The notes under the pieces are model-generated. The model saw only the letters and a list, made by a program, of their open reading frames with translations, did no database searches and had not been told where the DNA came from. DNA of 64,000 nt from Candidatus Zhuqueibacterota bacterium (lineage in GTDB: Bacteria > Zhuqueibacterota > Zhuqueibacteria > Oceanimicrobiales > Oceanimicrobiaceae), in the NCBI GenBank assembly GCA_029262005.1, contig JAJDAG010000086.1, positions 94,344 through 158,343 of the forward strand, in the 5' to 3' direction. Numbering within the stretch: the first letter of the stretch is position 1; each line of letters starts with the position of its first letter. The position numbers and the translations under genes were made by a program. Positions 4,018-9,410 of this stretch are shown here, in pieces.

Positions 4018-4071
4018 TGCTTATCTTTTTAAGTTAAAAAACTAAATAAACCTAAGTTTGGAGAAAACTTC

Positions 4072-5490
4072 ATGTCCAAAAAGATTTCAGCTGTATTTGA
4101 ACTTGCAAAAAAAAGTGGTGCAAAAATACTTGATGTCAAATTTATGGACTTCCCGGGGCTTTGGCAACACTTTACAACTCCTATTTCACTTCTGACCGAA
4201 GATCTTTTCGAAGAAGGATTCGGTTTCGACGGTTCCAGCATTCGTGGCTGGCAAGCCATCAACGAGAGCGACATGATTGTCATTCCCGATCCGAGCACAG
4301 CCCTGGTCGATCCTTTCATGCAACCAACGACCTTAAGTCTGATTGGTGATGTGCATAGCCCTCTTACAAAGGAAAGATACTCTCGCTGCCCCCGTCACAT
4401 TGCGCAGAAAGCGGAGGCATACCTCAAGGCCAGTGGCATTGCTGATACCGCTTATTTTGGCCCAGAAGCTGAATTTTTTATTTTTGATGATATTCGTTAT
4501 GATCAGAATGAACACTCAGGATATTATTATGTTGATTCTGTGGAAGGCACCTGGAACTCAGGCCGGGATGAAGGGCCAAACCTTGGCTATAAGCCGCGGT
4601 ACAAAGAAGGATATTTTCCGGTGCCGCCAACAGATGCTTTTCATGATATGCGCAGTGAAATGATCTTGACTATGATAGATTGCGGTCTCGACGTGGAATG
4701 CCATCACCATGAAGTTGCAACCGGTGGGCAGGCAGAAATCGACCTCAAATATGGGCCATTGGTGGCCACCGCGGACAATATGCTGCTCTATAAATATATC
4801 GTCAAAAACACGGCACGAAAGTATGGCAAAACCGTCACTTTCATGCCCAAGCCTTTGTTCAACGACAACGGCTCCGGCATGCACGTGCATCAGAGTCTGT
4901 GGCAAGAGGGCAAACCGATGTTTGCCGGCTCCGGCTATGCCGGCTTGAGCGAGATGGCGCTGCACTACATCGGTGGCATTCTCAAACATGCGCCTGCACT
5001 CATTGCCCTGACCAATCCAACCACAAACTCATTTAAACGCCTGGTACCAGGTTATGAAGCGCCGGTGAACCTGGCTTACTCAAGGAGTAATCGTAGTGCA
5101 GCCTGTCGCATTCCGGTTTATTCAGATAGCCCGAATTCGAAGCGTATCGAGTTCCGATGTCCAGATCCGAGCTGCAATCCGTATCTCGCTTTCAGCGCCA
5201 TGCTCATGGCAGGCCTTGATGGCATCACCAACAAAATTGACCCGGGCGAGCCGCTTGAAAAGGACATCTATGATTTATCGCCAGAAGAGCTTGCCGATGT
5301 GCCATCTACTCCGGGCACACTTTCGGACGCACTCGATGCCCTGGAAAATGATCACGAATTCCTGCTCAGGGGTGATGTTTTCACAGATGATGTCATCGAA
5401 ACCTGGATTCAGTACAAACGCGAAAACGAGGTGGATGCTATGCGCCTGCGACCACATCCGTACGAATTTACCCTTTATTACGACATATAA
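4072..5490 (+). CDS. glnA: Glutamine synthetase type I
   Basis: The 472-residue product is a GSI, which forms glutamine from glutamate, ammonia and ATP in the cytoplasm. It has the GSI length and signatures: [16 protein letters not shown] near residue 50, the metal/ATP block [12 protein letters not shown] near 265, and NRSAACRIP in the substrate region. DIYDLSPEE near residue 400 matches the Tyr loop that GlnE adenylylates, so this enzyme looks like the adenylylation-controlled GSI-beta class. The gene directly downstream encodes a GlnE-type enzyme, which agrees. Its own promoter and a strong terminator flank it, so glnA is probably transcribed mainly as a single-gene unit. Confidence 0.97.
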
Positions 5491-5513
5491 ATCCGCCTGA
5501 CTAAAACCCAATA

Positions 5514-5553
5514 AACGCCCGGCGAATAACGACCAACGCCGGGCGTTTTATTT
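5514..5553 (+). terminator. Rho-independent terminator after glnA
   Basis: AACGCCCGGCG pairs perfectly with CGCCGGGCGTT (11 bp, 12-base loop) and is followed by TTATTTA. It lies 23 bases past the glnA stop and separates it from glnE. Confidence 0.85.
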
Positions 5554-5690
5554 AGCACCTGAAGCGGCCAATTTGCGGAGAGCAACATTTTGCATTAAAA
5601 TCAACATTACAACTCGACTTTGTCTGGTGGTATTCGCATTATGACAATTGCAAATGACTCTCACTTTTCGTAGATTTCCCGCACTTACTC

Positions 5691-8600
5691 ATGCTATTGC
5701 TTGAATCTGAAAAAATCAAATCTCTGCTCCTCACCGACAGAAAAATCGACGCGGCCGAAATTGAGCCGCTTCTTTTCCCTTTCGGATTTGAGGATTGGCG
5801 CACGGCATACAAAAGTCTTTGCCGGCTTATGGCCACCGTTCGGGCGCAAACAGCACTAGCAGACATTTTACCAGCTATTCTTTCTGCGATAGCCGACTCA
5901 GCCAACCCGGATCGAGCGCTGCTCAACCTGGAGCGCTTTGCTGATAGCGTTCCCGACAAGGCTGCGCTGTTCAGTTTTCTCCAGGACAACCCCCGCACCA
6001 TTGAAATGCTGGTTATCTTGTTCGCAGGCAGTCAATTCCTCACCGATATTCTGCTGCGCAATCCAGACCACTTTGAGCAAATAAAGGAACACAAGCGCCT
6101 CACACATGTAAAAAATCGCCTCCAACTCACCACTGAAGGCCGCGATGCAGCAATGGCCTTTGCAACACCTGAACAAAAATTGGAAGCGCTGCGGCGCTTT
6201 CAACGCTGGGAATTTTTGCGTATCGGCACCGGCGATTTGTTCGGCTCTATCGATTTGCAGGCCGTTACTTCCCAATTATCAAACCTGGCCAGAGCAATCA
6301 TTCAAATCTCTCTGGATATTGCCGCAACTGAACTTGAAATCCCAACCGAGGGATTTACGGTTTTAGCCCTGGGAAAACTGGGTGGACGAGAACTAAACTA
6401 CAGCTCAGATATCGACCTGATCTTTCTGTGCCGAAGTCAAAGTGCGCAAACCCAAAAACTGGGAAGGCACCTCATTGCCGCCCTGGCGCAAGCCACACCA
6501 GAGGGATTTCTCTACCGCGTAGACATGCGATTGCGCCCATGGGGTGGCGTCGGCACGCTCGTTCCTACGATTTCAGAGCATGTTTCGTACATCGAAAACA
6601 AGGCGCAACTTTGGGAGAAACAGGCCTTGTATAAAGCGCGGGTCGTAGCTGGCGATGGTGTGCTTGGCATCGATTTTCTCCAACAAATACGCCCGCACAT
6701 TTTGAACCTGCCAAAGGCGGAACTGAGTGAGGAAATCCGGGGGATGAAGAAAAAAATCGAAGACAGGTTAAAGCGGCGCGGCAAAAGCTGGGGTGAAGTA
6801 AAATCAGGCTCAGGTTCAATTAGAGACATAGAATTTGTAACGCAATTTCTGCAGTTGGTGAACGGTGTCACCTTCCCAGAAGTGCATAGCCGCAACACCG
6901 TTGACGGTCTTGCCAGACTGACTGCCTGCAAAATATTGTCGGCACATGACTATCGTGTTGCTGCAGATGGCTACGTCTTTCTCCGATCCGTGGAACACCA
7001 TTTGCAAATCATGCATAATCGCCAGACTCACCAACTACCAAATGAGCCAAGAGAATTAGCTTACCTTGCACGCAGGCTTGGGTTTCAAGGACAGGGAGTT
7101 GGAAGTCAATTTGTGCAGCGATACGAGCAGCACAGCGCCGCTTTGCGTTACTTGTATGAACGCCACCTCGGTGCCGACCAGAAGCAAACCACGCTAAATC
7201 TGGAACCTCAGCAGAGCATTGCAGCATCAGCTTCTGAAATCACAAAACATGTTTCCCGCATGGACAAAGCCTATGCTGTGACCTTCACCCGAAAGGAAAT
7301 CGAACTGCATGCAATGTTAGCCGGAAGCCTGAGCATTGAGAAGCCAGTGGCTTTTGAAGCAAGAAAAATTAACGAAACTGATTGGCAGGTCACCATCGTT
7401 GGCTATGACTACCTTGGCGAATTAGCATTGATTTGCGGACTTTTTTGCGATTACAAGCTCAACATTCTTCAGGGCGCTGTTTTCACTTACGGGCCGAAAG
7501 AAGAACAACAAGCCAAGGTTAACAATTCTCGTTCTTTTAGAAGTTCAAAACGGCGGCCTAAACAAAACCCAACAGAAAATGGGAAAAGAAAAATCGTTGA
7601 CGTCTTTCGGGTACAGCCGGTCGGCAGAAAAGTAAGTGCCGAAACCTGGCTACAGTATTCTGAGGAACTCACCAAGTTTCTGACGGACTTAAGCAAAAAG
7701 AAACAGAATGAAGTTCAGGGAGAAATCGCCCGGAGAGTAGCACTAAAAGTGCACGAAGCGAAAAAAGCAACCGAGACCCTGCTCCCGGTCGAGATTGCCA
7801 TTGACAACACATTGTCGCGGCAGTACACTGTTCTCAGAATTGACGGCGCCGATACAATGGGTTTTTTGTACGAACTTACAAATGCATTGTCGCTAAACAG
7901 CATTCACCTCGTGCGCGTGATGGTAACATCCATAAGAAGCCGCGTTCACGACACACTATTTCTTACGGACGTGCATGGCAACAAGATAATCGATCCGGAA
8001 AGACTCTACAAACTGAGGGTGGCAACAGTTCTGGTTAAGCATTTTACACACATCTTACCCCAGTCTCCAAACCCGCAATCGGCCATGTTGCACTTCAGGG
8101 AATTCGTGTCACACCTTTTTAAGCAACAGGACTGGTCAAATGCGATAGCTTCACTTGAACGGCCGGATGTTCTCGACGCCCTGGCAAAATTGCTTGGAGG
8201 CAGCGATTTTTTGTGGAATGACTTTTTACGCATGCAACATGAAAATCTTTTCCCTGTGGTGGAAAACTTACAAGCACTCGGGCATGCCAAAAGCAAAAAA
8301 ATGTTGCAGGTAGAGTTGGATGCATTCTTGTTGAAAGAGAAAAACTTTTCTGATAAAAAAAAGCGGTTGAATGCATTCAAAGATCGTGAAATGTTTCGTA
8401 TTGATATGCGCTACATTCAGGGTGCATTGCCTGACTTTAAACAATTCTCACGTGAACTCTCAGAACTGGCTGAATCCGTGGTAGAGTCAGCAATTCACCT
8501 TGCGTTCGAAAACCTGGTTTCACAATTTGGAAAACCGACTCTTGAGGATAATACGGACTGTCCATGGACGATGTGTGCTCTGGGTAAGTTTGGTGGCCAG

Positions 8601-9410
8601 GGACTCGGGTTTGCATCAGATATCGAATTAATGTTCATTTACAAAGGAGCCGGCACAACCACAGGAAAAACAGAAATGCCAAACAGCCTGTTCTTTGAAA
8701 AACTCGTTCATTTAATTTGTAATACCATTATTTCGAAGCATGAAGGCATATTCGAAGTTGATTTGAGATTACGGCCTTACGGCAAAGCAGGGAGCTTTGC
8801 AGTTTCCCAGAACTCTTTCCAGAAGTACTATGCAGCGGGCGGACCCGCCTGGGATTATGAACGCCAGGCACTGGTTCGGTTGCGCCCCATTGCAGGAAAC
8901 GCACATTTCTCAGCCCGGGTGGTTGTCTTACGGGACACCTGCGTGTACACAGGCATGACACCGGATGTCCAAACCATGCGCGCCATGCGCGAACGCCAGT
9001 TACGGCAATTGGTGGCCGGCGGTGCTGTCAATGCCAAATTCAGCCCGGGCGCCCTCGTGGATCTGGAATATTTGGTGCAACATCTGCAAATAAAATATGG
9101 TTGCGACAACCCTGATTTACGTTTAACCAATACCAACGATGCCATAAACGCGCTAAGTCTGGCAGGTATCATCGGCGAATCTGACTTCAAACAACTTCAA
9201 GAGGCGCATAATTTTATCAGAAAGCTCATTGAGGCTTTACGTATGGTTCGCGGAAATGCTAAAGATTTGAACGTGCCGCCGGAGGACAGCAAAGAATTTT
9301 CTTTTCTTGCAAGACGTTTGGGCTACGGCAAAACGCCATCAGAGCTAAAGGAAGACTTGATTCAACATACTTCGCAGGTACTAATAATTAGCGAAAGGTT
9401 ACTAGGCTAA
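5691..9410 (+). CDS. glnE: Glutamine synthetase adenylyltransferase/adenylyl-removase with internal ACT pair
   Basis: The 1,239-residue product has two GlnE nucleotidyltransferase halves. The N-terminal one carries GKLGGRELNYSSDIDLIF near residue 230 and GSGSIRDIEF near 372. The C-terminal one carries GKFGGQGLGFASDIELMF near 965 and GALVDLEYLVQHLQ near 1120. By family knowledge the first half removes AMP from GlnA and the second adds it. The protein is about 290 residues longer than ordinary GlnE. The excess lies between the halves and looks like two ACT domains, at about 565-600 and 711-770. The second (FLYELTNALSLNSIHLVRV... DPERL) closely resembles the C-terminal ACT domains of GlnD. A basic low-complexity linker separates them. 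The second catalytic half has DIE where DxD is usual. Adjacency to glnA supports the role. Confidence 0.9.
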   Translation: MLLLESEKIKSLLLTDRKIDAAEIEPLLFPFGFEDWRTAYKSLCRLMATVRAQTALADILPAILSAIADSANPDRALLNLERFADSVPDKAALFSFLQDNPRTIEMLVILFAGSQFLTDILLRNPDHFEQIKEHKRLTHVKNRLQLTTEGRDAAMAFATPEQKLEALRRFQRWEFLRIGTGDLFGSIDLQAVTSQLSNLARAIIQISLDIAATELEIPTEGFTVLALGKLGGRELNYSSDIDLIFLCRSQSAQTQKLGRHLIAALAQATPEGFLYRVDMRLRPWGGVGTLVPTISEHVSYIENKAQLWEKQALYKARVVAGDGVLGIDFLQQIRPHILNLPKAELSEEIRGMKKKIEDRLKRRGKSWGEVKSGSGSIRDIEFVTQFLQLVNGVTFPEVHSRNTVDGLARLTACKILSAHDYRVAADGYVFLRSVEHHLQIMHNRQTHQLPNEPRELAYLARRLGFQGQGVGSQFVQRYEQHSAALRYLYERHLGADQKQTTLNLEPQQSIAASASEITKHVSRMDKAYAVTFTRKEIELHAMLAGSLSIEKPVAFEARKINETDWQVTIVGYDYLGELALICGLFCDYKLNILQGAVFTYGPKEEQQAKVNNSRSFRSSKRRPKQNPTENGKRKIVDVFRVQPVGRKVSAETWLQYSEELTKFLTDLSKKKQNEVQGEIARRVALKVHEAKKATETLLPVEIAIDNTLSRQYTVLRIDGADTMGFLYELTNALSLNSIHLVRVMVTSIRSRVHDTLFLTDVHGNKIIDPERLYKLRVATVLVKHFTHILPQSPNPQSAMLHFREFVSHLFKQQDWSNAIASLERPDVLDALAKLLGGSDFLWNDFLRMQHENLFPVVENLQALGHAKSKKMLQVELDAFLLKEKNFSDKKKRLNAFKDREMFRIDMRYIQGALPDFKQFSRELSELAESVVESAIHLAFENLVSQFGKPTLEDNTDCPWTMCALGKFGGQGLGFASDIELMFIYKGAGTTTGKTEMPNSLFFEKLVHLICNTIISKHEGIFEVDLRLRPYGKAGSFAVSQNSFQKYYAAGGPAWDYERQALVRLRPIAGNAHFSARVVVLRDTCVYTGMTPDVQTMRAMRERQLRQLVAGGAVNAKFSPGALVDLEYLVQHLQIKYGCDNPDLRLTNTNDAINALSLAGIIGESDFKQLQEAHNFIRKLIEALRMVRGNAKDLNVPPEDSKEFSFLARRLGYGKTPSELKEDLIQHTSQVLIISERLLG

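Follow-up and report, generated by a model that had tools for sequence, protein, structure and literature searches.

Can a glutamine synthetase (GS) adenylyltransferase carry its own amino-acid sensor, that is, rather than rely on one that is located elsewhere? The GlnD-PII-GlnE cascade is textbook covalent-modification signaling. With E. coli the amino-acid sensor is found on a separate protein, GlnD, with PII serving as its messenger, and in canonical GlnE the N-terminal half is responsible for deadenylylation and the C-terminal half for adenylylation. The question is raised here by an open reading frame at positions 5691-9410 of the window, i.e., the whole stretch of 64,000 nucleotides that was analyzed. 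This reading frame, which is on the plus strand as are its features described below, encodes 1239 amino acids. It consists, as based on Pfam and NCBIfam matches, of a GlnE half, two ACT domains, and then another GlnE half, and is described here as ACT-GlnE.

Both GlnE halves are complete, as the Pfam families GlnE (PF03710; 2.6e-98) and GlnD_UR_UTase (PF08335; 2.4e-36) each match the protein twice, thereby bearing out what the original prediction had said of them. The N-terminal half spans approximately residues 95-500 (5973-7190), with PF03710 at residues 106-331, PF08335 at 351-490, and the catalytic motif GKLGGRELNYSSDID at 6372-6419. The C-terminal half spans residues 795-1239 (8073-9407), with its catalytic motif, GKFGGQGLGFASDIE, at 8583-8630, and there a Glu replaces the second catalytic Asp. 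In Foldseek comparisons this C-terminal half resembles both solved domains of E. coli GlnE (3k7d, TMt 0.74; 1v4a, TMt 0.81). There thus are two nucleotidyltransferase halves, each with a helical domain of the GlnD_UR_UTase type, as seen from Pfam and, for the C-terminal half, also from its fold. ACT-GlnE nevertheless falls below the cut-off of every matching NCBIfam GlnE model (472, 448, and 376 bits versus 625, 487, and 724, respectively).

What lies between these halves are about 290 extra residues, which the original prediction had described as containing ACT-like segments, the second resembling the ACT of GlnD. They consist of a lead-in of about 45 residues (7248-7379; HVSRMDKAYAVTFTRKEIELH...), ACT1 (approximately residues 565-668; 7383-7694), and ACT2 (approximately residues 701-785; 7791-8045, with the motif GFLYELTNAL at residues 724-733), and are homologous to the regulatory module at the C-terminus of GlnD. 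Pfam's generic ACT family, PF01842, matches weakly (0.16 with the whole protein, 0.022 with the middle region alone), such that ordinary annotation could overlook the pair, while another ACT family, PF24931, matches above its cut-off (1.3e-6, residues 702-775). Far stronger on the middle region are the NCBIfam models of GlnD, i.e., PRK05092 (2.7e-31) and TIGR01693 (1.5e-27), with the latter aligning residues 510-776 to model positions 614-842 of 850, if with a score well below its cut-off. By hhalign, a profile of eight relatives matches a GlnD from the same phylum with 99.2% probability (E 8.8e-20) over GlnD residues 641-863 of 874, that is, from the lead-in onward. A profile built from 78 middle regions in turn retrieves seven GlnD entries, from five genomes, with E values of 1e-23 to 2e-37. 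The segment HVSRMDKAY..F...EI..H, which precedes ACT1 in GlnD, is present as well in the ACT-GlnE lead-in. As homology begins upstream of ACT1, the middle region corresponds as one block to the C-terminal regulatory part of GlnD.

Structure prediction agrees. In an AlphaFold model of residues 515-790 one ACT-type fold follows another (pLDDT 79, or 87 if modeled together with the C-terminal half), with the last helix of ACT2 continuing into the C-terminal half. The first ACT, at which the original prediction had hinted, thus is a real fold, but one that is interrupted, in its beta3-beta4 loop, by a disordered insert of about 32 residues (601-632; 7491-7586) with pLDDT below 50 over most of its length. 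Across 72 family members this insert varies in length, with a median of 30. It is 28% Lys/Arg in the window's protein. A strongly basic insert as a family trait is weak, however, with a mean Lys plus Arg content of 17% versus 12% overall. Between the GlnD models, the profile comparison, and the AlphaFold model, an ACT assignment due to chance or misreading is ruled out, and the reading of this protein as an ordinary GlnE with a filler linker is rejected. Nor is the protein a GlnD: Pfam matches no HD domain in ACT-GlnE, and the NT-HD-ACT-ACT order of GlnD is not seen.

The presumed substrate is encoded next door, as had also been claimed originally. That is, glnA, a type I glutamine synthetase of 472 amino acids (4072-5490, plus strand; TIGR00653, 4.8e-203), lies upstream on the same strand, with the ACT-GlnE reading frame starting 200 bp downstream. 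By alignment its adenylylation tyrosine is Tyr400 (nucleotides 5269-5271). That tyrosine is kept in all 27 GlnA-type synthetases (at least 57% identity) from related loci, most of which are directly beside ACT-GlnE. Elsewhere in the window's genome is a second, divergent GS-like gene (G000:C8:3583-4908; L164), scoring 225 bits, below the GlnA cut-off, and without the KDIYDL adenylylation motif. A search with Rfam for regulatory RNAs near glnA and glnE found none.

The architecture is not restricted to this genome. Among 82 surveyed genomes of the window's phylum (KSB1/Calditrichaeota), the ACT form is found in eight, of which one is truncated at a contig end, and canonical GlnE in four. A wider scan, employing one genome per species, yielded 159 relatives of the middle region, the best 80 of which were analyzed. 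The order GlnE half, ACT, ACT, GlnE half is seen in 64 of those best 80 loci, including some that are cut by contig ends and two that are broken by a frame change, which rules out a one-genome oddity or an assembly error. Carriers of this fused form among the best 80 are mostly Chloroflexi, and mostly Anaerolineae among these, but also KSB1/Calditrichaeota, Planctomycetes, one member of the Spirochaetales, and one Thermoanaerobaculia MAG. Any GlnE at all is found in just five of 151 sampled Chloroflexota genomes, and the three with both halves are all of the fused size. In the ACT-GlnE genomes examined, including the window's, ACT-GlnE is the sole GlnE.

The remaining 16 of the best 80 loci encode only ACT, ACT, and one GlnE half. 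For 14 of these 16, all from Nitrospira or its relatives among the Nitrospirae, the neighboring gene is divergent and encodes a single GlnE half, e.g., as seen at locus L107 with stop-to-stop frames that overlap (4029-5849, minus strand, and 5704-8184, plus strand). Likewise divergent halves, with stop-to-stop frames overlapping or nearly touching, occur at L105, L109-L112, L115-L118, L120, and L121. The other GlnE half lies at a different place in the genome in a Latescibacterota case, and in a Glassbacteria case a search of the genome for a second half found none. GlnE reading frames of other Nitrospirota are mostly canonical in size. The ACT pair thus belongs to the C-terminal half, in fused and split forms alike. 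The original prediction of what was a single protein therefore was too narrow, with the architecture present in at least five phylum-level groups in addition to its split form.

Two further kinds of loci were encountered in the course of these surveys. At L143 (G002:C35:58000-65500), a canonical-system relative, glnD and glnE lie next to each other and converge, which could have favored transfer of the ACT module. GlnD-like matches of about 1000 amino acids in the phylum (G056, G061, G062, and others) were found to represent a different, GlnE-like protein beside folE2, and were left out of the counts. This divergent GlnE/GlnD-related protein (about 990-1030 amino acids; L021, L020, and L019 in G056, G061, and G062, respectively), similar frames of which are present in many of the phylum's genomes, matches PF08335 at about 6e-21 and PF03710 marginally. 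Its gene is directly upstream of a putative FolE2-type GTP cyclohydrolase.

In the classical pathway a GlnE is reached via GlnD and PII, and the original prediction had suggested that this relay could here be bypassed. The gene content of the window's genome is consistent with this suggestion: at 98.7% completeness it contains neither a PII match, with a model that finds matches in 13 of 14 control genomes, nor a full GlnD, i.e., not the pair on which the classical cascade depends. Neither of two outcomes that would speak at the sequence level against the original prediction thus was found, these being a middle region without an ACT match or a complete glnD-glnB system. Within the phylum, genomes with ACT-GlnE lack GlnD in eight of eight cases and PII in six of eight (one of these six being 67% complete), versus GlnD above cut-off in four of four and PII in three of four genomes with canonical GlnE. 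A single family (f16) contains both situations, with one genome (G004) possessing canonical GlnE, GlnD, and five PII matches and another (G005; 98% complete) possessing ACT-GlnE and neither GlnD nor PII. Two members of the window's own family (G028 and G029) are without both GlnE and PII, however, so in that family the absence of PII is in part a trait of the lineage.

As a general rule the bypass does not hold. Fifty genomes, MAGs without stated completeness, stand behind the wider set of loci, 41 with fused and nine with split forms, and five of the 50 overlap with the phylum survey. GlnD is missing from 36 of the 41 fused-form genomes. Of those 36, 30 are without a PII match at E<1e-10, with eight of the 30 displaying weak PII matches. 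As most carriers thus are without GlnD and PII, the nitrogen relay may be condensed in them into one protein. The five fused-form genomes that do have GlnD, from Planctomycetes, Thermoanaerobaculia, and Spirochaetales, all have PII as well. GlnD is present also in five of nine split-form genomes, with Nitrospira keeping both GlnD and PII beside the ACT form. Given this persistence in Nitrospira, Planctomycetes, Thermoanaerobaculia, and Spirochaetales, bypass is confined, at most, to lineages like KSB1/Calditrichaeota and Chloroflexi.

Which half does what is addressed by catalytic motifs, profiles, and trees. In the window's protein the motif is SDID in the N-terminal half and SDIE in the C-terminal half, with the third acidic residue and GKxGG in both. 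SDIE is found in 34 of 34 ACT-linked halves versus SDLD in 18 of 18 canonical C-terminal halves, and across 66 aligned ACT-linked halves the Glu is invariant. In trees of GlnE halves (FastTree, plus a more careful tree of 47 rows), the ACT-linked halves, fused and split, form one fully supported clade on a long branch. The best trees group that clade with canonical C-terminal halves (0.82 with FastTree, 58/46 with IQ-TREE), though an AU test does not reject the reverse (p 0.30), and the same grouping attains 92/92 with two divergent rows excluded. By profile score the C-terminal half leans to the adenylylation side, while the N-terminal half of fused forms is equivocal. Sequence comparison thus leans toward a C-terminal half of the adenylylation type. 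A Glu that is fixed on so long a branch, and that occurs in none of the 18 canonical C-terminal halves, might instead mark altered catalysis, e.g., use of another nucleotide, another target, or one direction only, in which case ACT-GlnE would not be an ordinary bifunctional GS adenylyltransferase. We consider that improbable, as Asp-x-Glu supplies the metal ligands of other nucleotidyltransferases such as kanamycin nucleotidyltransferase, as the remaining catalytic residues of the ACT-linked halves (GKxGG and D-R-RP) are invariant or nearly so, and as a glnA with the target tyrosine adjoins.

The ACT pair may similarly be asked what it senses, if anything. The amino acids bound by ACT domains are, across the class, many, and dimerization is common among these domains. 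The two ACTs of GlnD are considered to be its glutamine sensor (PMC3173338), and glutamine governs GlnD activity through a single site (PMC4285133). By homology to GlnD, glutamine most likely is the ligand of the ACT-GlnE pair also, that is, it is the leading candidate. The beta1-alpha1 loop glycine of ACT domains lies where PGDH has its serine site (PMC3173338), and the equivalent, putative ligand-site glycines are conserved among 62 fused sequences, G576 of ACT1 in 98% and G724 of ACT2 in 100%, with the GFLYE motif nearly invariant as well. This near invariance, along with retention of the pair on the C-terminal half even where the halves are separate genes, speaks against a pair that is mainly structural, i.e., a connector or dimerization element, with regulation arriving from elsewhere. 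Such a role nonetheless could account for the modeled continuation of the last ACT2 helix into the C-terminal half as well as for the loss of the ligand-site glycines, mostly to Ser or Ala, in split forms; overall we give it little credence. Somewhat better placed, if still unlikely, is that the pair senses another amino acid, e.g., glycine, serine, or alanine, which are themselves feedback signals for GS, so that the enzyme would integrate a different nitrogen signal. Consistent with this are the breadth of ligands of ACT domains generally and the divergence of this pair from that of GlnD, i.e., 29% identity, the ACT1 insert, and DT-GFLYE standing where GlnD has its ACT2 signature. The clearest relatives within curated families nevertheless are the ACTs of GlnD, which are considered to sense glutamine.

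The preferred reading, to which we assign a probability of roughly 0.6, is that ACT-GlnE is a GS adenylyltransferase/deadenylylase that is regulated in-house by an amino acid, most likely glutamine, and here without GlnD or PII. The GlnD-like C-terminal regulatory module, placed ahead of the C-terminal catalytic half, would bind that amino acid. When abundant, the ligand would cause the ACT pair to turn on AMP transfer to Tyr400 of GlnA, to turn off AMP removal, or both, thereby lowering GS activity, and when scarce the balance between adenylylation and removal would reverse. In the window's genome this switching would involve neither GlnD nor PII, while ACT-GlnE may receive both inputs where GlnD and PII persist. 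In GlnD this module toggles between the NT and HD sites, and in ACT-GlnE the same module would bias two GlnE sites. E. coli GlnE responds to glutamine in vitro although it has no ACT domains. Direct glutamine control of GlnE thus is not new in principle, and some other effector could be the one to which the ACT pair responds. Extending the preferred reading, we view it as about an even bet that a GlnD ACT pair was joined to a GS adenylyltransferase to form a one-protein nitrogen sensor-effector, taking the place of the whole GlnD-PII relay in lineages of KSB1/Calditrichaeota and of Chloroflexi, with the split in Nitrospira tying the sensor to one catalytic half.

A sensor that is found inside its effector, where the bacterium has neither GlnD nor PII, is a natural minimal version of the cascade. 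With the relay removed, what is lost, i.e., the sensing by PII of 2-oxoglutarate and energy, versus what is kept becomes a testable question. Ready comparisons are supplied by fused versus split forms and by lineages with versus without GlnD and PII, and the separate Nitrospira halves are a case of a bifunctional enzyme that is naturally split. The architecture surely is already in sequence databases, as the original prediction had allowed; no description of an ACT domain within GlnE was found in the open-access literature. The novelty lies in finding the sensor domain of GlnD within GlnE and in its persistence without the relay.

Among known systems, a sequence search of a PDB copy found no solved structure of a close relative of the ACT pair. 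The best structural matches are therefore the nearest available, rather than the closest relatives, and are to the 180-kDa glutamate dehydrogenase of Mycobacterium (7jsr; E 1.9e-5), likewise a nitrogen enzyme with ACT-like domains but with a low TM-score (0.26) and an unrelated catalytic part. Plant ACR11 and ACR12 are GlnD-like proteins consisting only of ACT domains, with ACR11 co-expressed with GS2 (PMC3173338). They too associate a GlnD-type ACT pair with glutamine synthetase without GlnD, but as separate chloroplast proteins that possess no catalytic domain. GlnD itself, the PII uridylyltransferase/uridylyl-removing enzyme, is like ACT-GlnE a nucleotidyltransferase with an ACT pair, homologous across lead-in, ACT1, and ACT2. 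It differs in possessing the uridylyl-removing HD domain, behind which its ACT pair is located, whereas in ACT-GlnE the pair is instead ahead of a GlnE half. E. coli GlnE shares with ACT-GlnE two halves in the same order, both with PF03710 and PF08335, and solved domains like which the ACT-GlnE C-terminal half folds. ACT-GlnE differs from that enzyme in its GlnD-type ACT pair, in the SDIE of its C-terminal half, and in belonging, in the window's genome, to a bacterium with neither partner, PII or GlnD.
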